Below are positions 7,701 through 24,441 of a stretch of DNA of 26,122 nucleotides, piece by piece; positions within the stretch are counted from its first letter, which is position 1; each line of letters opens with the position of its first letter. The stretch is taken from the IMG/VR virus record IMGVR_UViG_3300036791_000195, positions 1 through 26,122 of that record, one strand, 5' to 3'. The notes under the pieces were generated by a model. The model searched no databases. It was not told the origin of the DNA and saw only the letters and a list, made by a program, of their open reading frames with translations. Source of the DNA: a virus. Both the position numbers and the translations under genes were made by a program.

Positions 7701-8161
7701 ACTTCACCTGTCATGATGAAGCGCTGTACCATCTTTGTCAGTTCCTTACGTTCAATTTCAGTCAACTGTACTAGCCTACGCTGTGGCATCTTTGATGTTC
7801 CTGATTGCTGGAAACCAGCATATGAAACATCAGTACCGTAACGCAACCAGTCATCAGCAGTTTCAGCTATTGAACCTTCACCTTCACCAGTAAGTGAATT
7901 GTACAGTATCTGTGTTGCACGTTCAATCCATGGTTGCTGGCGCTTGCGAGCTTTAGCTTTGAGTGTACTCTCAGCTAACGGTGCCCAACCACCTGAACCA
8001 TGTGAACCTTCAGTAAGAAACTGTACCTGTTCAATTAGCTTCAGTACCTTCAGCATTTCATTCCATAGCTTCTCAGTAGTGCGAGCGTTATCTCGCATTC
8101 TCAGAAAGGTACGGTCGATCTGAGTTTCACCTAATACTTCAAGAGTGAATTCAAGTGGCAT
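7697..8161 (-). CDS. phage virion morphogenesis / head-tail joining protein
   Basis: A 154-residue protein resembling the phage virion morphogenesis family (Mu gpG, P2 gpS; related to HK97 gp10). The central GSGGWAPLAESTLKAKARKR is the family's typical segment (W-x-P-L-x-x-x-T), followed by QILYNSLTGEGEGS and a C-terminal GTDVSYAGFQQSG...RRLVQLTEIERKEL. These proteins join or complete the head-tail junction. The start codon overlaps the preceding stop as TAATG, and the gene's own TGA overlaps the next ATG. Good motif match; the precise place in the neck is inferred. Confidence 0.75.
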   Translation of the reverse strand: MPLEFTLEVLGETQIDRTFLRMRDNARTTEKLWNEMLKVLKLIEQVQFLTEGSHGSGGWAPLAESTLKAKARKRQQPWIERATQILYNSLTGEGEGSIAETADDWLRYGTDVSYAGFQQSGTSKMPQRRLVQLTEIERKELTKMVQRFIMTGEV

Positions 8162-12559: not shown

Positions 12560-14830
12560 TTACTGTCCTTCATCCACTTCGGATTCACCGTATACTGCAA
12601 CCAATGTACCTCTGCACCTAGGGCCGCCAGCGCAGTCCATGAATCCACCTGTCGGATAGTCACCGTCAGCAGCATCCAGGTCTGGATACTCAGTGCCATC
12701 AACAGCAGTACACTCGTCACAAGTATTACTGTCAAGTAGCTCTGAAGCATAAATATAATCAGGATCGCCATCGTCCATTACTTCTTTACGTCCAGAGTTG
12801 AGTGCCTGTTGCAGTGCACCACCTAGCTGATCTTCAAGGTAACTAGTGGAGAAGCTCGAGAGATATGTACCAACTGTGTCAGCAACTTTAGCTGGTGCTT
12901 GTGCAGGTGATAGGCTAAGAGCTTTACGTGCACCAGCTTCACTGAGTGAACGTGCTAGTACCTGATCAGTGGATGCTGCACGGTTGGATAGTGCTGCATT
13001 TGTTGCTGTCATGTCAGGCATTGGAATTGCTTTACCTTGACGTTTCGCTTCACCAACTGCTGACTTTGCACCTTCATTAGCCATATCCACCATATGCTGC
13101 TGAATGGTGACAGCATGTACAGGATCAGCTTGTATCTGTGACAGTATGTCAAGGTCACCTTTAGCTGCAATGATCTGTTCCTGTAACTGGCTTATCTGTG
13201 ATTGCTGACCTTTCTTTACTGCACTTACTAGAGAACCTTGTGCAGTGTCAAACAGAGTGTCAAGATGTGCATAGTCAACTGCTGCCTGTATTTCATGTGG
13301 ATAAGGTTGACGGCGCAGAGTCCGGTTAGGCAACGGCAGGAGAGAATTACTGACCGTTGCATTCGTAACTCTGCGCCGCTCATCAGTTACAGCCTTAGTA
13401 GGGGACATGACTGTAGCTGATGGCTGTGTAACAGGTTGGTTTCCATTAGATGATTGTTCACCTGTAGGTTCTTCCTGTGTAACAGGTCCGGGTTCTTCAG
13501 GCATCGGTGGTGCCTTTGGGGGTGTAACTATTGGTGGGTTAGGTTCAATTACTTCTGGTGGTGGTGTGTAACTTGGCAGTGCATATTTGTCACGGAAGTA
13601 AGACTCAAGTTCCGGATCGACATGCACTATGTTGTTACTTACCAGTGACGCCAGATCAGCAATAGACAAGTCAGGATCAGGGTTACGTTCATGCTCGATA
13701 CGTGGTGATAGCTCATCTTCACCGTAATTCCAATCCACCCAATCTTCAATGAGAAACTCTGACACTGCATCTTCAACCCACAGTGCAATTGTTTCTTGTG
13801 TCAGAGTGAAGTATTCGATGAACGATTCACCTAGTGCACGTGCACCAGATTGTGTCTGGCCAAGTTGCATGAACATCATCAGAAATGCACGTGACATTGC
13901 TTCATCATGCATTTTGATTGAGCCTACTGTGTCAGGTATACCACCTGTTGTGCCTACCAGTGTCAGCTTTGCACCAGCAGGAGTAGCTGCACCTGCCAAG
14001 TCACCTGCACGGAATGACTGTGCCAGTTGGTTCAAGTATTCAATTTGCTGCTTAGTGGCACCAACTGGTGCCTCAATCCATGGCACTCCCAAACCGTTAC
14101 GGTCATGCTTCATTGCATCCACTCGTAACAAGCGATCCTTGATCAACCAGTTCTTATAGACACAGCGAAACATACTGCGACCAAACCAGTTACCACCTTC
14201 CAGGTCCCACACCATTGGTGTCAACCGTGCAGCGGGAATTTCAGGTGAATTCAAACCTACTGCCTGCTTGATACTGACGAGTGCACCTTGTTCATCAACC
14301 TTCACCTGTGAAACTGTTGATGGCGGTCGTGGAGCAATATCCACAAGGTGCCAGAAGTTGTCACGTATCTCACCTATGTTTTCAAAGTAATAGAAACCAT
14401 AGATGGTTGCCAGTAACGCTTGACGTAGGAAGTTACCCCAATGAAACTTGTCACGTGTCCGTGGCTTGTTTTGTGCCAGTTCACCTTGAATGGGTAGGTT
14501 GACATCATCAGCAAACGCTTGCACCACTTCATCACGTGCACCGTTAGGTGCCACAAACCACTTGTATCTACGGATAGGCATAGTGCAACCGAGATACAAT
14601 CCTTGACACTGTGAGTCAGTTCGCATCTGGTGGTATGTCTTTACAGAGTTAGGCCATGTCAGTTCAGGTACATGTTCAGTCTGATCAACCCAACCTATTT
14701 CAGCCCATGGCAAAACACCACCGATGTTCACTTGTCCCATTTCACCAACAGGTGGTGGACCAGCGCCATTTGTTGACGAAACGAGTGTACGTGCCTTGAC
14801 TCTATTTATGCGAGTTGAAGAGACTGACAT
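12560..14830 (-). CDS. portal protein fused to MuF-like minor head domain
   Basis: A 756-residue protein. Residues 1 to about 420 are a portal of the DUF935/Mu gp29 type: PWAEIGWVDQTEHVPELTWP, SVKTYHQMRTDSQCQGLYLG, a wing/stem with YGFYYFENIGE, WDLEGGNWFGRS and a long crown-side segment. A Pro-rich linker (about 420-480) leads to a helical MuF-like minor head domain. This ends in a Cys cluster typical of that family: LLDSNTCDECTAVDGTEY (C704, C707), then FMDCAGGPRCRGTLV (C733, C739). Portal and MuF are separate genes in many phages, so the single chain is notable. The portal is the DNA gate and the MuF part sits inside the head or neck. The ATG at 14830 is preferred to an in-frame TTG at 14839; AAGG lies upstream. 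Confidence 0.88.
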   Translation of the reverse strand: MSVSSTRINRVKARTLVSSTNGAGPPPVGEMGQVNIGGVLPWAEIGWVDQTEHVPELTWPNSVKTYHQMRTDSQCQGLYLGCTMPIRRYKWFVAPNGARDEVVQAFADDVNLPIQGELAQNKPRTRDKFHWGNFLRQALLATIYGFYYFENIGEIRDNFWHLVDIAPRPPSTVSQVKVDEQGALVSIKQAVGLNSPEIPAARLTPMVWDLEGGNWFGRSMFRCVYKNWLIKDRLLRVDAMKHDRNGLGVPWIEAPVGATKQQIEYLNQLAQSFRAGDLAGAATPAGAKLTLVGTTGGIPDTVGSIKMHDEAMSRAFLMMFMQLGQTQSGARALGESFIEYFTLTQETIALWVEDAVSEFLIEDWVDWNYGEDELSPRIEHERNPDPDLSIADLASLVSNNIVHVDPELESYFRDKYALPSYTPPPEVIEPNPPIVTPPKAPPMPEEPGPVTQEEPTGEQSSNGNQPVTQPSATVMSPTKAVTDERRRVTNATVSNSLLPLPNRTLRRQPYPHEIQAAVDYAHLDTLFDTAQGSLVSAVKKGQQSQISQLQEQIIAAKGDLDILSQIQADPVHAVTIQQHMVDMANEGAKSAVGEAKRQGKAIPMPDMTATNAALSNRAASTDQVLARSLSEAGARKALSLSPAQAPAKVADTVGTYLSSFSTSYLEDQLGGALQQALNSGRKEVMDDGDPDYIYASELLDSNTCDECTAVDGTEYPDLDAADGDYPTGGFMDCAGGPRCRGTLVAVYGESEVDEGQ

Positions 14831-16937: not shown

Positions 16938-17354
16938 TCATTGAATGCAACCATAGATTGACACATGACCACCAGGATGATTGATTACAACTATACCTGG
17001 AACAAATCCACTTGGACATGACACTGCACCGCTTGGTCCTTGTGGTCCTTGTAGTCCAGGGGGACCAATTGATCCAGTGTCACCTTTAGGCCCGGTATTA
17101 CCAGTAGGGCCGGCAGTGCCAGTTGGTCCAGTTACACCTTGCGGTCCAGTTGCACCTTTAGGACCTGTTACACCTTGTGGTCCAATAGGACCACGTGGAC
17201 CAGGCTTACCAGGACGAATGTTGACAGTTACAGTTTTCACTGGTGCTGGTGGATTACTTGCACCAATAGCAGTAGCAGTAAGGAACCCGGCCGAACCCGC
17301 AAGTAACAGTGATCCTGCCATTGCAACAGTTATTTTCTTGACATGGTTAGTCAC
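16938..17354 (-). CDS. membrane-anchored or secreted collagen-like protein
   Basis: A 138-residue protein with three parts. An N-terminal signal or anchor segment ([20 protein letters not shown]) is followed by about 20 uninterrupted Gly-X-Y triplets at residues about 48-110 ([12 protein letters not shown]...). The C-terminal head of ~28 residues has two Cys (SCPSGFVPG...YGCIQ). Triplets can form a collagen triple helix. In phages such repeats normally occur in tail fibres, but here the protein has an export or anchor signal and lies between a holin-like gene and the lysins. A lysis-related envelope role is therefore possible (inference). The GTG start at 17354 overlaps the preceding stop as GTGA, with GAGG upstream. 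Confidence 0.78.
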
Positions 17355-17506: not shown

Positions 17507-18973
17507 TTACAGTTGGCGAGTAAGCAAGTCATCAGTTATTCCAACAGTACGCTTCTTGTTACGTGGATCGTACTGTGGTGCTGACCAGTAATTAGCCATG
17601 TAACATGACATCATCAGTGCATCTGCCTTATCTGGTGACCGTCCTAACTGTTTCTTTGTCAACTCCTTTGGTTCAATGTAGATTCGACCTGCACTGTCAA
17701 TGGAATACTTGATCGCCAGTAACTCTGACGCCAACATATCGTCAGTGTCATCAATATCCATTGCACCTTCTTCAAACAGTTCTCTTACTGTCCACCACAT
17801 TTCAGCGCGCAGGTTCTTGAATCGTCTAGGGTTACTGGCACTAGATGATGAGTCAAATGGAATGGCGGGCCTACCCATTTCTGTAACTCGATCATATACA
17901 CCAGCACCAACACCAATAACATCAATAACGGCAGGACAAGTTTCATCCGTGTCCAGTATATACCTGCCAATCCTACCTGCCGTTTCCATTGTGTCAGATT
18001 TAGGTATAACTGTTACTGTACGTATGACACCATCCTGATTGCGCATGATGACAGTTTGATCATCACCGTAACGTGCAATGTCACAACCAAACCTACCATC
18101 GCCAAGACCAGGTAGTGACTGTTGCTGTGCACGTAACACCATCGCTGGTGTGATCAATGTATCCTCAGTTACTTCAGGAAACTCAGCTAATACTTTGGAC
18201 GTATACAACATTGAACCTTCACCCCAACGCTTCTTGCGTTCATCTACCCAAGTTTCACTTACTAGTGAGGCTGCAAGATGTTCAGATACAGGTTCACCAG
18301 TAAATGCAGGTGTGTCAAATGCTGATATCTTCATGACATGCCAGCCGCTGCCAGGTCTACAGACACGTTCAAACTCAGCAGTTGGATCGTCAGGGTTACC
18401 AATTGCCAAGACATGTGAGTCTTCATTAGTAACTAGAGTGTCAGTTGCATCCCACAACCACTTGGGTATTCCACATGCTTCATCCAATATCACTAACACG
18501 TACCGTGCATGGATACCCTGAAACGCTTGCATTGCCTTTTCAGTGTCACGGTAATCAGCAGGCTTGCGACCATATGCAATGATTTCATTGCCGATCTTCC
18601 ACATTGGCACTGCACCTGAAGTAATGCGACCATGCAACTTACCCTTAGTGTGTGCACGTGCAATCTCGCGCCACAGTACCGCTTCAACTTGCGGTTGTGT
18701 CGGTGCACTAGTAACTACAAATGCACTACCTTCAGGGTGCACTTCCAACCACCATGCAGTCAACCTGCCACCAGTCCATGACTTACCTGTACTGTGTGCA
18801 CTCTTCACTGCAACGTATCTATGATCAGCTACAGCATCCATCAGATCCATTTGCCTTGACCACATTTCTTCACCTAGTATGTCTTCACACCAGGCAACTG
18901 GATCGTAAGTGTAACTGGCATATACAGGATTGTACCTGTCAGCCAAACGTTGCAATGAGAGTGTTAGTGACAT
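17507..18973 (-). CDS. terL: terminase large subunit
   Basis: A 488-residue packaging ATPase-nuclease. Walker A is SAHSTGKSWTGG (about residues 58-69), Walker B YVLVILDEACG (about 158-168), and the coupling motif region is SHVLAIGNPDDP. The RNase H-like nuclease domain has GRFGCDIARYGDDQTV (about D298), CPAVIDVIGVGAGVYD (about D351) and a final SPDKADALMM acidic cluster. It cuts concatemeric DNA and pumps it through the portal. The ATG at 18973 is chosen because AGGTGA lies at proper distance and the stop of a small upstream gene is one base away; a GTG three codons earlier falls inside that ribosome-binding site. All expected motifs are present. Confidence 0.95.
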   Translation of the reverse strand: MSLTLSLQRLADRYNPVYASYTYDPVAWCEDILGEEMWSRQMDLMDAVADHRYVAVKSAHSTGKSWTGGRLTAWWLEVHPEGSAFVVTSAPTQPQVEAVLWREIARAHTKGKLHGRITSGAVPMWKIGNEIIAYGRKPADYRDTEKAMQAFQGIHARYVLVILDEACGIPKWLWDATDTLVTNEDSHVLAIGNPDDPTAEFERVCRPGSGWHVMKISAFDTPAFTGEPVSEHLAASLVSETWVDERKKRWGEGSMLYTSKVLAEFPEVTEDTLITPAMVLRAQQQSLPGLGDGRFGCDIARYGDDQTVIMRNQDGVIRTVTVIPKSDTMETAGRIGRYILDTDETCPAVIDVIGVGAGVYDRVTEMGRPAIPFDSSSSASNPRRFKNLRAEMWWTVRELFEEGAMDIDDTDDMLASELLAIKYSIDSAGRIYIEPKELTKKQLGRSPDKADALMMSCYMANYWSAPQYDPRNKKRTVGITDDLLTRQL

Positions 18974-19378: not shown

Positions 19379-19591
19379 TCACTGTGTGTATGGATATGGC
19401 TTGAACTCAGGGTATATCTTGTTGGCATCAGTGCCACGATTGTCAGGTTGACCAACGTCGCGCCAAGCAGTGAGTGCCATTATCTCGTCTGCCAACTCAG
19501 GGAAGTCAGCGATGATGTCAGCGTAACTGCCACCGCTAGTTGGCACACTGACACTGGATGGATACCGTTGGCTAGTTACTTTACCTGCCAT
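19379..19591 (-). CDS. small hypothetical protein
   Basis: A 70-residue soluble protein (MAGKVTSQRYPSSVSVPTSG... ending YPEFKPYPYTQ). It has an acidic helical middle (SYADIIADFPELADEIMALT) and a Tyr/Pro-rich end. The start overlaps the terminase small-subunit gene by 11 bases. No domain is recognised. Its place between the two terminase genes suggests a packaging accessory, but this is only position. Confidence 0.62.
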   Translation of the reverse strand: MAGKVTSQRYPSSVSVPTSGGSYADIIADFPELADEIMALTAWRDVGQPDNRGTDANKIYPEFKPYPYTQ

Positions 19592-20165
19592 TGTGACTCA
19601 CTTCTGTTGCAGTACCTTCAATCAATTCCAGGTGTTTGCGCATTGATGGACCGAGCTTTCTACGTTGATCAGGTGTCAGTGACAAGTCACTGATTACTGC
19701 TTCCAGGTAGTCACTCACCATGTCTGCTTCACGTTCTGCCAGTTTCAACTGTGCTTCTTCAATGCCGATATCCAGTGCCATCTTACTGTAACGTGCAAGC
19801 CTGTCAGTTGCAGCTTGTCGCAACAGTACCCACCTCGACAGTACCTCAGCATCACGCTTCTGTGTAATCAACTCCTTGTTACCATCAGGCATCTCTGCAA
19901 GTATTACTGTCAGTGGACGTTCAAACAGTTCATCTTCACAGAGTCTAGCTATCTGTGCATCACAGTAATCAATCTCACCGTTAGTGATCCTGATAGCTTT
20001 CAATATGGCATCATGAGGGTGGATGTCAGTTGGAGTACCCATGAATCTACCATCCACCCTAGTGAGCCATTCTTTCACTACTGACGGTTGACGCCGTGCT
20101 TCTTTGGCAGTGACTCGATCAAACATGTCACTACGGCTTCCTGTATGTCGTTTCACTGCTGACAC
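19581..20165 (-). CDS. putative terminase small subunit
   Basis: A 194-residue, mainly helical, charged protein, first in the leftward block. Features are an N-terminal basic segment (VKRHTGSRSDMFDRVTAKEARRQ), a middle with DAILKAIRITNGEIDYCDAQ, and the segment DRLARYSKMALDIGIEEAQL followed by KLAEREADMV, which resembles small-terminase-type DNA-binding proteins of actinophages. It would recognise the packaging site and load the large subunit. The GTG at 20165 is used; a GTG at 20156 or the ATG at 20126 remain possible, since the ribosome-binding site is weak for all. Identification is moderate. Confidence 0.65.
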   Translation of the reverse strand: MSAVKRHTGSRSDMFDRVTAKEARRQPSVVKEWLTRVDGRFMGTPTDIHPHDAILKAIRITNGEIDYCDAQIARLCEDELFERPLTVILAEMPDGNKELITQKRDAEVLSRWVLLRQAATDRLARYSKMALDIGIEEAQLKLAEREADMVSDYLEAVISDLSLTPDQRRKLGPSMRKHLELIEGTATEVSHNGR

Positions 20166-20291
20166 GATCCGAATAATTTACCAAGAATGTCAAATGCATT
20201 GCCTGTTACTATCGTGAACTCATAGATGACACTGTTCACTTACAGTGTGTAGTGCTAGCTATTACTGTCACTACCTGCTAATTTGGCTAGC

Positions 20292-20316
20292 ATCGGATTA
20301 TTCGGAATAATCCGAT
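20292..20316. repeat. 25-bp palindrome containing the TCGGATTAT repeat
   Basis: The arms ATCGGATTATTC and GAATAATCCGAT are exact reverse complements around one central G. The same half-site TCGGATTAT recurs at 20459-20467 and 20476-20484, and ATCCGAATAAT appears at 20167-20177. It is suited to binding a dimeric protein, either an initiator or a repressor. Confidence 0.85.
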
Positions 20317-20323
20317 AAATACG

Positions 20324-20342
20324 ACAATCCGACAATCCGACC
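20324..20342. repeat. tandem ACAATCCG repeat
   Basis: Two direct copies of ACAATCCG lie side by side (20325-20340), giving CAATCCGACAATCCGACC. They share the core AATCCGA with the adjacent palindrome and look like weaker iterons of the same binding site. Confidence 0.7.
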
Positions 20343-20361
20343 GGAACCTCAGTAACAGTGT

Positions 20362-20418
20362 CATTTTTCCTATAAACTAATAAAATGAGATTCATTCTCA
20401 TATTTACTATCATACACG
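20362..20418. other. AT-rich segment with short inverted repeat
   Basis: This stretch is clearly richer in A and T than its surroundings. It contains ATGAGA-TTCAT-TCTCAT, a 6-bp inverted repeat at about 20385-20401. Lying between two groups of TCGGATTAT repeats, it could be the DNA-unwinding element of an origin or the -10 region of divergent promoters. Confidence 0.5.
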
Positions 20419-20458
20419 TAGACACAGCATACTTTTCACCTCCCGTCCTGTCGGAATG

Positions 20459-20486
20459 TCGGATTATCGGCTTTATCGGATTATTC
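20459..20486. repeat. second group of TCGGATTAT repeats
   Basis: Two direct copies start at 20459 and 20476, 17 bases apart, with TCGGCTTTA between them; a degenerate TCGGAATG precedes at 20451. The second copy extends to TCGGATTATTC, as in the left palindrome arm, and is followed by two GCTAGCAT copies (20488-20495 and 20499-20506). A third GCTAGCAT sits at 20286-20293 beside the palindrome. Confidence 0.75.
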
Positions 20487-20637
20487 AGCTAGCATTTTGC
20501 TAGCATTCACCTTTTTCACCATGTTTCAGCAAGCACTCTGTTAGTCACTGACACATATTCGCACTTGTTACTGACGATTTGACACGGTGGTAGAGTATAT
20601 GGTGAGAAAGTCCATTTCACATCCTGACTTGGCTTCT

Positions 20638-20716
20638 TGTGGATAACTGGCAAACGCTACTCTAGAACTAGTCACTCTAGAGTAGCGTTGCCTACTATCC
20701 ACTATCGTTATCCACA
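20638..20716. promoter_or_regulatory. pair of inverted DnaA boxes flanking a long hairpin
   Basis: TGTGGATAA at 20638-20646 and TTATCCACA at 20708-20716 are exact, oppositely oriented copies of the classical DnaA box. Between them lies an imperfect inverted repeat: arms 20649-20666 and 20676-20692 (ACGCTACTCTAGA against TCTAGAGTAGCGT with flanking GGCAA/TTGCC, one unpaired A) and a 9-base loop. ACTAGTCACT in the loop is repeated at 20727-20736. Host DnaA could bind here to help start replication or to regulate the primase gene. Confidence 0.72.
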
Positions 20717-20751
20717 TACTGTCAAGACTAGTCACTTACTAAGGAAGTGTA

Positions 20752-22887
20752 ATGGAACATGAAAGAGCATTCCTTTCATTCTTTCAAGCAGGTAAAGAAC
20801 CAAGAGACGCTGCACTTGCATATGCCTCATTACGTATCTTTGTATTTCCACTTACTGAACATACCAAAGTTCCACTGCCAAATACGCATGGCTTCAAAGA
20901 TGCAACTACCAACACTGAACTAATCAAGCAATACTGGCAAGTTGGCTCACTGAACAACATAGGTATTGCGCTACCACAGTCATGTATGGTGGTAGTTGAT
21001 GTTGACCCTCGCAATGGTGGTGAAGAGAGCTTTCGTGAACTGGTAAAGAAACACGGACCAATACCTGACACGTACACAGTAAGAACTGGCGGTGGAGGTT
21101 GGCATTATTGTTATCGAGTGTCGCCAGACTTCTATGAAGACACTACACCATACGGTGACAACAAGAAACTCGCACCAGGCATAGACTTACTGATAAATGG
21201 ATATGTAGTTGCACCACCATCCGAAGTTCAAGGTAACTTGTATGCCATTGACAGTGGCAGTCCAGAGTTTGAGTTTGCGACACTTCCATTCGCTTGGCTA
21301 GATGAAGTCATCGCTAATAAGCAGCAAGATGAGTATGACTCAGGTTGGCAACATGACAATGACACGTTCACCATTGACAGTGGTGAGCGTAACAACTCGC
21401 TAACGTCACTAGCTGGCCATTTGCGTAACCTGTATCTGAATGAACGGGATATAGTCGAGATACTGCACACTGTGGCGGAAAACCATGTCACAGATTACGA
21501 TAATGACACAAAAAGAGAAATACCAATCATCGCACGCAGTATCTGTAAGCACATACCTAAAGGCATACCATTTTATGACCGTGAGGTTAGGTTACGTAAA
21601 AGGGTACACAAGCCGATACTGAATAAGGAACTGGCGCTTCATGGTCCAATAGGAAGATGGGTAAAACTAACACTTGAACACAGTGAAGCGCATCCAGCAG
21701 CGTTACTGACACAAGCGCTGACGGTATTCGGCAATATGATAGGTGCACGTGAATATGGGTTTGAAGCCCCTGGATTTACTGCTGAAGGTGCACACCACAC
21801 AACAGCACTATATACACTCATCATTGGTGAGTCAGCAATAGCAGCCAAAGGTGACTCCCTGTCACAAGTGTTACGCTTCCTGGTGCCACTTGATCCAGAA
21901 TGGCCACACAAAAGTGGCGTACAAACTGGTGAAGCAATTACTAAGGTACTGGCGGATGATGTTGAAACTGGTGAAGTGGCGACAGTTAGACATGGTGATC
22001 AGGTAGACAAGAAACTGCACAAACTCAAAGGTGGACAACCGGATAGAAGGTTGTGTGTCATCGAAGATGAGTTTGGCAGAGTGTTACATGTGGCTAAACG
22101 CGCAGGATCAACTATCAAGGACCTATACAAGTCAATGTGGGACTCAGGTTCAGCAGAACACATCACAGCGGCAGAACAGAGAAAAGTAACTGATGCCACG
22201 CTGTCATTCATTGGTCATGTCACTCCATACGAACTACGTAACGACACAACTGATGGTGACTTCCTGAATGGCTACATGAACCGCTTTCTGTTAGTGCACT
22301 CTGAACGTACACAAACATTACTTGAAGCACAAGGTCTACCAGAACGTAAGCTTGCGACACTACGTAAGGAACTGTATTGGGCATTACAGTTTGCACGTGA
22401 CGATGCACCATTTGAATATGAGTTCTCCAAAGATGCATTGGAATTACTGGTGGAGATACATCAGAAGTGGACACAACCTATAGCTGATCCAATAGTGTCA
22501 GCAATGCGTTCACGCGCACGACCTAACATAAAGCGTTTGGCGATTATATATGCAGTGTCGTGTTCACATGACCTGATTGAAGTGGCAGACCTAGAAGCGG
22601 CTGAAGCTGTGTATCAGTATCACTTCGACACAACCGAGTATCTATTCAGTCAGTTCATAGGTAACCAGAACGCGGAGAAACTGTACCAAGCATTACTCGC
22701 CAATGCAGCAGGACTCACCAAGTCAGAAGTGTACAATGAAATATTCAAGCGTGGTAGGCACGCAAAGGCACAAGCGAGTGAAGCAATGGACATTCTTATT
22801 TCACGTGGCATTGCTGTGATGGTTGAAATACACAAGCCAGGATCGCGCAAGCCTAGTTCAGTGATCAGGCTCGCACAGATACTATGA
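20752..22887 (+). CDS. primase-polymerase fused to DUF3987-like helicase domain
   Basis: A 711-residue replication protein. Residues about 20-190 are an archaeo-eukaryotic-type primase/polymerase: motif I VVVDVDPRNGG (D83, D85), motif II GGGGWHYCY (H118) and motif III GIDLLINGYVVAPPS (D145). Residues about 300-560 resemble DUF3987/helicase-like phage proteins, with a modified Walker A GESAIAAKGDS (about 359-369) lacking the standard GKS/T order and a Walker B-like LCVIEDEFG. A C-terminal winged-helix-like segment follows (LYQALLANAAGLTKSEVYNE). It would make primers and unwind DNA at the origin lying directly upstream. AAGGAAG precedes the ATG at seven bases. It is the first gene of the rightward operon. 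Confidence 0.88.
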   Translation: MEHERAFLSFFQAGKEPRDAALAYASLRIFVFPLTEHTKVPLPNTHGFKDATTNTELIKQYWQVGSLNNIGIALPQSCMVVVDVDPRNGGEESFRELVKKHGPIPDTYTVRTGGGGWHYCYRVSPDFYEDTTPYGDNKKLAPGIDLLINGYVVAPPSEVQGNLYAIDSGSPEFEFATLPFAWLDEVIANKQQDEYDSGWQHDNDTFTIDSGERNNSLTSLAGHLRNLYLNERDIVEILHTVAENHVTDYDNDTKREIPIIARSICKHIPKGIPFYDREVRLRKRVHKPILNKELALHGPIGRWVKLTLEHSEAHPAALLTQALTVFGNMIGAREYGFEAPGFTAEGAHHTTALYTLIIGESAIAAKGDSLSQVLRFLVPLDPEWPHKSGVQTGEAITKVLADDVETGEVATVRHGDQVDKKLHKLKGGQPDRRLCVIEDEFGRVLHVAKRAGSTIKDLYKSMWDSGSAEHITAAEQRKVTDATLSFIGHVTPYELRNDTTDGDFLNGYMNRFLLVHSERTQTLLEAQGLPERKLATLRKELYWALQFARDDAPFEYEFSKDALELLVEIHQKWTQPIADPIVSAMRSRARPNIKRLAIIYAVSCSHDLIEVADLEAAEAVYQYHFDTTEYLFSQFIGNQNAEKLYQALLANAAGLTKSEVYNEIFKRGRHAKAQASEAMDILISRGIAVMVEIHKPGSRKPSSVIRLAQIL

Positions 22888-23568: not shown

Positions 23569-24441
23569 GTGTCTTACCATAAGCAGAAGAAGGTCAAGGC
23601 AGGTTCTAGGGCGGAGTATGTCGAGTCAATCGTTAGGCAGTTGCAAGATGCCGACGGTGACCCGCTACTGTGGCAACAGGAGATTGTCAAGGAAGCTGGT
23701 ATTCCACAAGCTGCACCTTACACTCCTATCATGACCACTCTGGAGTATCTGGGACTGGTTGACCGTTACATCGCCGATGAAGATGAAACTGTCAATGGTC
23801 GTGGACTAGGTAAAGCCAACACTGCGTATGCATGGGTTGGTGACAGAGTGAAGATAAAGGATATCTCCAGTAAGCGTGAACGTAGGCCAGGGCAAACTCG
23901 AGAAGAGTTTGAAGAAGGTGACGATGACGCAGCAGAGTCACGCCGTAGGTCAGGGCGTTCACGTGACGATGAAGATGAGTCACCACGCCACACCAGGTCG
24001 CGTAAGCAACGTAAACCTGAACCTGATGATGAGTATGACGATGAGTATGAAGATGAAGACACTGATGATGAAGATGACGATGACGTTGAAGTAGTTAGCA
24101 CTCCTCCACGCCGTAGACAGCGTGAACCAGTTACTGCCACTCGGTCATCACGACGTTCACGTAGAAGTGAACCTGAACCTGATGAAGAGGATGAACCTGA
24201 AGAGGATGATGACACTGAAGAAGAAGAAGAAGAGACAGTGTCGCGTCGCTCTTCACGCCGTTCATCTGCATCAAGGTCAAACGGTGAGTCGCGTTCACGC
24301 CGTTCACGTAGTGATAGTGACAGTGAGTCTGAACGCCCTACTCGCAGCATCAGAGTAAAGGCAAACGCCGAAGCGGACACAGACACAGAAGAAGAAGAGT
24401 CACAACCACGGCGTCGTCCGCGCCGACGCAGTATCGCCTAG
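23569..24441 (+). CDS. winged-helix-like protein with long RS/DE mixed-charge tail
   Basis: A 290-residue protein. Residues about 12-95 look like a winged-helix DNA-binding domain (AEYVESIVRQLQDADGDPLL, IMTTLEYLGLVDRYI, NTAYAWVGDRV). The rest is low-complexity: alternating acidic runs (DDEYDDEYEDEDTDDEDDDD; EEEEEE) and basic Arg-Ser runs (RSSRRSRRS; SRRSSRRSSASRS), ending RRRPRRRSIA. It is almost certainly disordered. The GTG start at 23569 has AAGGAG eight bases upstream. The 118-base gap before it contains TTGACA at 23499-23504, a possible -35 element without a good -10. Function unknown; a DNA- or RNA-binding role is likely from the charge pattern. Confidence 0.75.
   Translation: MSYHKQKKVKAGSRAEYVESIVRQLQDADGDPLLWQQEIVKEAGIPQAAPYTPIMTTLEYLGLVDRYIADEDETVNGRGLGKANTAYAWVGDRVKIKDISSKRERRPGQTREEFEEGDDDAAESRRRSGRSRDDEDESPRHTRSRKQRKPEPDDEYDDEYEDEDTDDEDDDDVEVVSTPPRRRQREPVTATRSSRRSRRSEPEPDEEDEPEEDDDTEEEEEETVSRRSSRRSSASRSNGESRSRRSRSDSDSESERPTRSIRVKANAEADTDTEEEESQPRRRPRRRSIA

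Follow-up and report, generated by a model that had tools for sequence, protein, structure and literature searches.

An intergenic region of an uncultured phage (20166-20751), lying between two divergent gene blocks, carries two mirror-image repeat arrays around the AT-richest DNA of its contig and, further along, a strong hairpin upstream of a primase-polymerase (PrimPol) gene. Judging from the sequences of this phage and its relatives, we lean towards reading it as a two-module replication control region, composed of a repeat/AT-rich origin and a PrimPol-linked structured leader. Mapped origins of uncultured PrimPol phages are, to our knowledge, few, and the region provides a small, testable candidate origin fragment.

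All positions are those of the window, the whole stretch of 26,122 nucleotides that was analysed. To the left of the region, a minus-strand operon begins with a gene for a 194-aa protein (19581..20165, -; phrog_3678, unknown function) and continues with the large terminase and structural genes including the tail sheath. The 194-aa product is possibly a small terminase subunit, its gene lying a few genes upstream of the large terminase. Genome matches to the terminase are mostly actinobacterial, and our search found no close prophage. A DNA-similarity search of phage and plasmid records with the region returned 0 matches, and Rfam gave no family, its single match (25.3 bits against a gathering score of 119) running on the minus strand across the arrays. 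Further into the same side of the window we observed a collagen-like Gly-X-Y repeat protein with a hydrophobic N-terminal segment (16938-17354, -), similar to a 225-aa ORF at 8114 of another locus (L148).

Inverted repeat arrays around an AT-rich centre

The initial annotation had described two groups of repeats around an AT-rich tract, and this description holds. All four copies of TCGGATTAT in the whole window (20293+, 20307-, 20459+, 20476+) fall within the region, and its 4 TCGGATTAT, 6 TCGGATT, 9 TCGGA and 2 TTATCCACA were each equalled in 0 of 2000 dinucleotide shuffles of 20166-20751. The nine TCGGA cores fall into two arrays that mirror each other across the AT-richest 60 bp; their 8-9 bp units lie on opposite strands and are oriented outward from the AT-rich centre. 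Read outward, array A (20308..20340, -) consists of TCGGATTG (20333-20340), TCGGATTG (20325-20332), TCGTATTTA and TCGGATTA (20308-20315), and array B (20451..20484, +) of TCGGAATG (20451), TCGGATTA (20459), TCGGCTTTA (20467) and TCGGATTA, this last unit being listed as the TCGGATTAT at 20476. Direct reading also revealed a perfect 12-1-12 palindrome, ATCGGATTATTC-G-GAATAATCCGAT (20292..20316), as the outermost part of array A. The segments 20305-20345 and 20446-20486 form an inverted repeat, 41 nt long with 88% complementarity; the region's top inverted match of this length scores 36, against a maximum of 31 in 300 shuffles.

The centre between the arrays (20346..20445) is 66% AT and is proposed as a duplex-unwinding element. 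It contains the AT-richest 60-mer of the whole contig (20351-20410, 77% AT) and a central element, AATGAGA-N5-TCTCATATTTACTAT, with a 6-bp palindrome (20384..20410; 79% three-way invariant), whose exact pattern was found only in two relatives among the viral contigs scanned. By eye, the palindrome at 20384-20401 looks like a Fur-type 7-1-7 operator. A sigma-70 promoter in the AT-rich centre was considered and found unconvincing, since the whole region holds 4 consensus-like sites where 2.0 are expected.

Promoter-like elements of the form TTGACA-N4/5-GGTANANT point outward from the region on both sides. The left one, TTGACA-N5-GGTAAATT (20175..20193, -), precedes the GTG of the terminase-side operon by ~10 bp and has counterparts by eye in L005 and L006, the two related contigs described below; the right one, TTGACA-N4-GGTAGAGT (20579..20596, +), belongs to the PrimPol operon. 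Each exact match is unique in the window, and 75% (20172-20195) and 71% (20578-20598) of the columns are three-way invariant. The placing of TTGACA just 4-5 nt before GGTANANT is unlike normal -35/-10 spacing, and the elements may be an overlapping regulator site. The left element would give an almost leaderless mRNA.

With the 194-aa protein as query, we found two viral contigs (L005/L013 and L006/L012) that keep the layout of the region, so three phages in all share it. The PrimPol alone, used as query of viral contigs, yielded no confirmed relative, and it was the 194-aa protein together with alignments that succeeded. The terminases of the two relatives are 91-92% identical to that of the window and their PrimPols 61-64%, while more remote phages with ~50% identical terminase are mostly without this PrimPol and the DnaA boxes. 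Conservation of the repeats in related phages had been set beforehand as a check that could refute an origin here; the layout survives in both relatives. The distance between the inner edges of the arrays is 99, 112 and 92 bp in the window, L005 and L006, and the total span 201, 204 and 196 bp. Spacing, AT-rich centre, central palindrome, promoter-like elements, hairpin and TATCCACA cores are kept in all three, and the AT-richest 60-mer lies between the arrays in L012 and L013 as well. The outer palindrome has a palindromic counterpart in L005 and one with altered letters in L006.

What has changed is the repeat itself: TCGGA occurs 9 times in the window region, 9 times in L005 and 0 times in L006, against 1, 2 and 6 occurrences of CCGGA. 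Since the array letters have changed, the arrays are only 54% and 36% three-way conserved; the DnaA-like cores reach 86-100%, and the longer stretches between named elements 21-44%. The concerted switch from TCGGA to CCGGA looks as expected for the sites of a co-evolving DNA-binding protein. Given the conserved layout, the diverged sequence and the concerted repeat change, the best reading of this part would be a sequence-specific binding array around a melting region. As in iteron origins, tandem short repeats occur beyond chance near a candidate initiator gene, AT-rich unwinding-type DNA adjoins them (the AT-richest 60-mer lying between the arrays in 3 contigs), and the repeats are conserved or co-evolving across relatives (TCGGA to CCGGA). 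A switch of the full repeat set between sister phages, with the geometry kept, is a natural experiment for the initiator and its recognition helix.

A probable structured leader and its DnaA-like boxes

Two exact DnaA boxes in opposite orientation had been reported around a hairpin upstream of the PrimPol gene, and we confirmed them as TTATCCACA at 20638..20646 (-) and 20708..20716 (+). The hairpin between them (20653..20689, +), recovered by inverted-repeat search and folding, has a perfect 14-bp stem, AACGCTACTCTAGA/TCTAGAGTAGCGTT, and a 9-nt loop. A third, degenerate DnaA-like box, TATCCAC (20695..20701, +), had been missed earlier and is a perfect TTATCCACA in L006. The first box is the 5' arm of a lower helix and the second an alternative 3' arm; because the 5' box is able to pair with either 3' box, the boxes make up the lower helix of the hairpin. 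Relative to shuffles, the fold of 20630-20725 is lower by 9.4 sd as RNA and by 8.3 sd as DNA. A terminator was rejected for this hairpin, which has no T tract and whose upstream gene is divergent. A further exact TTATCCACA at 13296 lies inside a coding region.

This leader shares traits with several origin types: more DnaA boxes than chance near a putative melting region, as in DnaA origins (here ~200-350 bp from the AT-rich centre); a DnaA box within a hairpin stem, as in the A site of the ABC primosome; and an AEP primase with a winged helix beside a conserved long hairpin, as in the RSF1010 and pRN1 type. Perfect DnaA boxes number 2 in the window region, 2 in L013, 1 in L012 and 0 in a distant relative (G001), the core being kept in the three close phages. 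Nine of the 10 columns of 20637-20646 are invariant, as is the TATCCACA core of the second box in the three phages. Across these phages 97% of the cells of the consensus structure pair, and both-sided pair changes number 3 against 1.3 in shuffles, a weak covariation from three sequences since 43 of 500 shuffles reach 3. The lower helix reads TTGTGGATAA...TTATCCACA in the window and L005 and TTGTGGATAC...GTATCCACAA in L006. The L006 change keeps the pair and weakens two DnaA boxes, while the middle L006 box is itself perfect for DnaA. Both the pairing and the letters thus seem to be under constraint.

The distant relative came from a deeper terminase alignment, which gave 80 viral loci. Among them, G001 (48,103 bases, L151) shows synteny with the window and encodes a PrimPol of ~41% identity. 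Its terminase-side divergent junction (17850-18735; L151:7440-8360) bears a different inverted array, in which ACTTACTAT recurs in places every 11-12 bp, and includes the three AT-richest places of the genome; ATTTGCAGGGGAA elements are also seen there. The PrimPol gene lies ~22 kb from this junction and is preceded by a different long hairpin, with a 16-bp inner stem, a 9-nt loop and a z of -3.0 to -4.8 depending on the stretch folded. This PrimPol-linked hairpin contains no DnaA box, and we found 0 TTATCCACA in the whole G001 genome. From this arrangement it follows that the repeat/AT-rich DNA belongs with the divergent junction and the hairpin with the PrimPol, and that the DnaA boxes characterise the three close phages. 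The split layout of G001 separates origin-linked features from PrimPol-linked ones. The single composite origin put forward in the initial annotation therefore stands in part: the layout is conserved, and within the leader nothing is better conserved than the DnaA-like cores, but with the parts ~22 kb apart in G001 and its hairpin without a DnaA box, repeats and DnaA sites as one unit are unsupported.

In L012 and G001 the sense strand has the more stable fold of the two strands, owing to its G-U pairs (5 and 8); for the window and L013, sense and antisense strands are about equal in this respect. The sense-strand G-U pairs would point to a single strand, either an mRNA leader or sense ssDNA, rather than to a duplex cruciform, and are only suggestive that the leader hairpin works in this form. 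The leader folds of remoter PrimPol phages are mixed, with nothing marked apart from Streptomyces phage JackieB (L234:2840-2934), where a 17-bp hairpin with a 9-nt loop stands directly before the PrimPol gene; this hairpin could be the terminator of the preceding gene. Pseudoalteromonas phage H40/1 (L233:2320-2935) has a similar divergent junction between terminase and PrimPol sides, with long AT-rich DNA.

Proposed mechanism, alternatives and known origins

Two proteins encoded on the PrimPol side are candidate DNA binders. The 711-aa PrimPol (20752..22887, +) is an AEP primase-polymerase with a helicase-like region and a C-terminal winged helix and is a candidate initiator; it matches PF09250 (E 6.8e-28) and primase/helicase PHROGs. 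The full-length model was discarded (mean pLDDT 38.5), and the model of the C-terminus gave a winged helix, HHH-EE, at pLDDT ~80-87. Foldseek returned winged-helix domains among the best matches to this C-terminus, none with E <= 0.001. The second candidate is a 290-aa partner protein (23569..24441, +) with a conserved N-terminal domain, residues 1-118 being 54% identical to the product of a PrimPol-adjacent gene in G001. Its tail is very long and charged, alternating between acidic and Arg/Ser stretches. A 188-residue Cys/His protein had earlier been named, beside the primase, as a possible binder; we do not prefer it because it lacks a counterpart in G001, where the 290-aa protein has one.

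Module 1 (20292-20486), with its mirror-symmetric arrays, conserved geometry, concerted motif change and AT-richest, divergent position, is the likely origin core. We infer that a phage-encoded protein, most simply the PrimPol C-terminal winged helix or the 290-aa partner, would bind both inverted arrays, that the AT-rich centre between them would melt, and that the PrimPol helicase-primase would load and prime there, probably bidirectionally. As the contig is a linear fragment, the origin may still lie elsewhere. Module 2 (20637-20717) has a strong fold, conserved in the three phages and accompanied by paired changes; the distant relative has a strong but different hairpin at the same place. 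Module 2 would act as a structured leader of the PrimPol transcript, or as the same strand in ssDNA form, three DnaA-box-like sites making up the lower helix of its hairpin. The hairpin itself may control PrimPol expression or serve as a priming or loading site. Help from host DnaA at this region is plausible but unproven: it might bind the boxes and assist opening or helicase loading, or repress the PrimPol. A bolder version, which we regard as speculative and unlikely, is a two-stage initiation that pairs a fast-evolving inverted array for the phage's own initiator with a sense-strand DnaA-box hairpin, through which DnaA would capture the strand or the transcript. If true, phage initiation or PrimPol expression would be coupled to the state of host DnaA.

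The arrays could equally be regulator operators or a centromere. In the operator case, they would serve divergent early/late promoters as a switch instead of an origin, and the leader hairpin would regulate the PrimPol mRNA. Divergent promoter-like elements do stand on both sides of the region, and the concerted motif change fits a regulator equally well. Ribbon-helix-helix regulators such as MetJ use sites of tandem 8-bp units without spacing, and the units here are similar. However, the arrays lie ~95-100 bp from both promoter-like elements without overlapping them, the contig proteins that were scanned included no recognisable repressor, and the AT-richest DNA sits exactly between the arrays in three phages, which leaves operators a possible but on balance doubtful explanation. 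Plasmid centromeres with clusters of short repeats on either side of a spacer are known, and the arrays with their spacer resemble them. A partition site of a plasmid-like prophage is nevertheless very improbable: no ParA/ParB-like gene was recognised among the genes scanned in the incomplete contig, the site adjoins replication genes, and its AT-rich spacer fits melting better.

For module 2, there is a sizeable, though less than even, chance that the DnaA-like boxes are not DnaA sites at all and are instead the RNA or ssDNA helix arms around a hairpin that controls PrimPol translation or priming, a reading that can be compatible with the repeat/AT-rich origin we favour for module 1. In each of the three phages, pairing between the 5' box and the distal box is perfect; where two of them have an A-T pair, L006 has C-G (TTGTGGATAC/GTATCCACAA), a change that weakens the DnaA match and preserves the pair. 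The hairpin that G001 has in this position, free of DnaA boxes, and the sense-strand G-U pairs of L012 and G001 point the same way. However, the box cores are invariant while the adjoining stem changes, so constraint acts on their letters and not just on their pairing; the word that stays constant is the DnaA consensus core, which is also nearly intact in the middle box. Another possibility is that initiation truly takes place at the hairpin, as a single-stranded DnaA-box site where DnaB is loaded by DnaA in the manner of the ABC primosome, the arrays being only regulatory. The DnaA box in the hairpin stem is like the described A site, but the phage has its own PrimPol-helicase and G001 manages without the boxes, and we consider this quite improbable.

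None of the known systems that we compared has exactly this arrangement. Iteron origins of plasmids and phages, of the P1 oriR type, bring together repeats, an AT-rich stretch and DnaA boxes, and the region combines the same parts. Unlike them, it has no Rep_3-type initiator that we could see, its repeats are inverted around AT-rich DNA, and its DnaA boxes lie on the far side, beyond the promoter-like element. Titles from Masai and Arai and from Carr and Kaguni, among the references of PMC3657122, concern an A-site hairpin with a DnaA box and the loading of DnaB. The likeness is the DnaA box in a hairpin stem; here, in contrast, there are three boxes with alternative pairings, they are absent in the distant relative, and a role for DnaA/DnaB is putative.

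Other parallels lie with phage- and plasmid-encoded primases. RSF1010 oriV works with the primase RepB'; its RepC iterons, its unwinding by RepA and its ssiA/ssiB hairpins are as described in PMC4234260. It resembles the region in its repeats, unwinding and hairpins with an AEP-type primase, but RSF1010 uses three separate proteins and two ssi hairpins, whereas here the PrimPol is fused, the 8-9 bp arrays are mirror images, and the hairpin contains DnaA boxes and lies downstream of a promoter-like element. The alpha protein of phage P4 is a primase-helicase whose winged helix binds short repeats (as described in PMC4234260), recalling short repeats as sites for the winged helix of a primase-helicase; the P4 alpha primase is, however, a Toprim enzyme, and the likeness concerns the winged helix and its binding to short repeats. 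In pRN1 and phage BIP-1, an AEP primase-helicase-winged-helix protein acts at a stem-loop origin beside its gene (PMC4234260). The similarity is such a protein with a long hairpin adjoining the gene. Their hairpins are downstream of the gene and without iterons, whereas here the hairpin is upstream and a separate repeat array is present.

GC skew and DnaA-box clusters in viral contigs

Cumulative GC skew, proposed earlier as a check, has its minimum near 20.5-21 kb of the window. In G001, however, skew tracks gene direction, its sign flipping with each major reversal of the genes, at three different junctions. Since coding direction explains the skew, the window minimum is not evidence of an origin, and we rejected it as such: no change beyond gene direction, as a bidirectional origin would give, was seen.

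DnaA sites had also been called uncommon in phage intergenic DNA, which our searches contradict. The pattern of three TATCCACA-type boxes occurs in at least 119 stretches of viral contigs, so DnaA boxes are not rare in such DNA, and many among the matches listed have 5 to 29 boxes within 500 bases. The 82 ORFs whose starts face the listed clusters (L021-L137) include, for terminase small-subunit families, six matches to phrog_51, five to phrog_1595 and two or three to each of the others, in a count where one protein may match several PHROG families. Among 82 random ORFs of the same loci, one matched any of the families shown. As a preliminary result, these DnaA-box clusters seem to adjoin terminase small-subunit genes more often than random ORFs of the same contigs would give.
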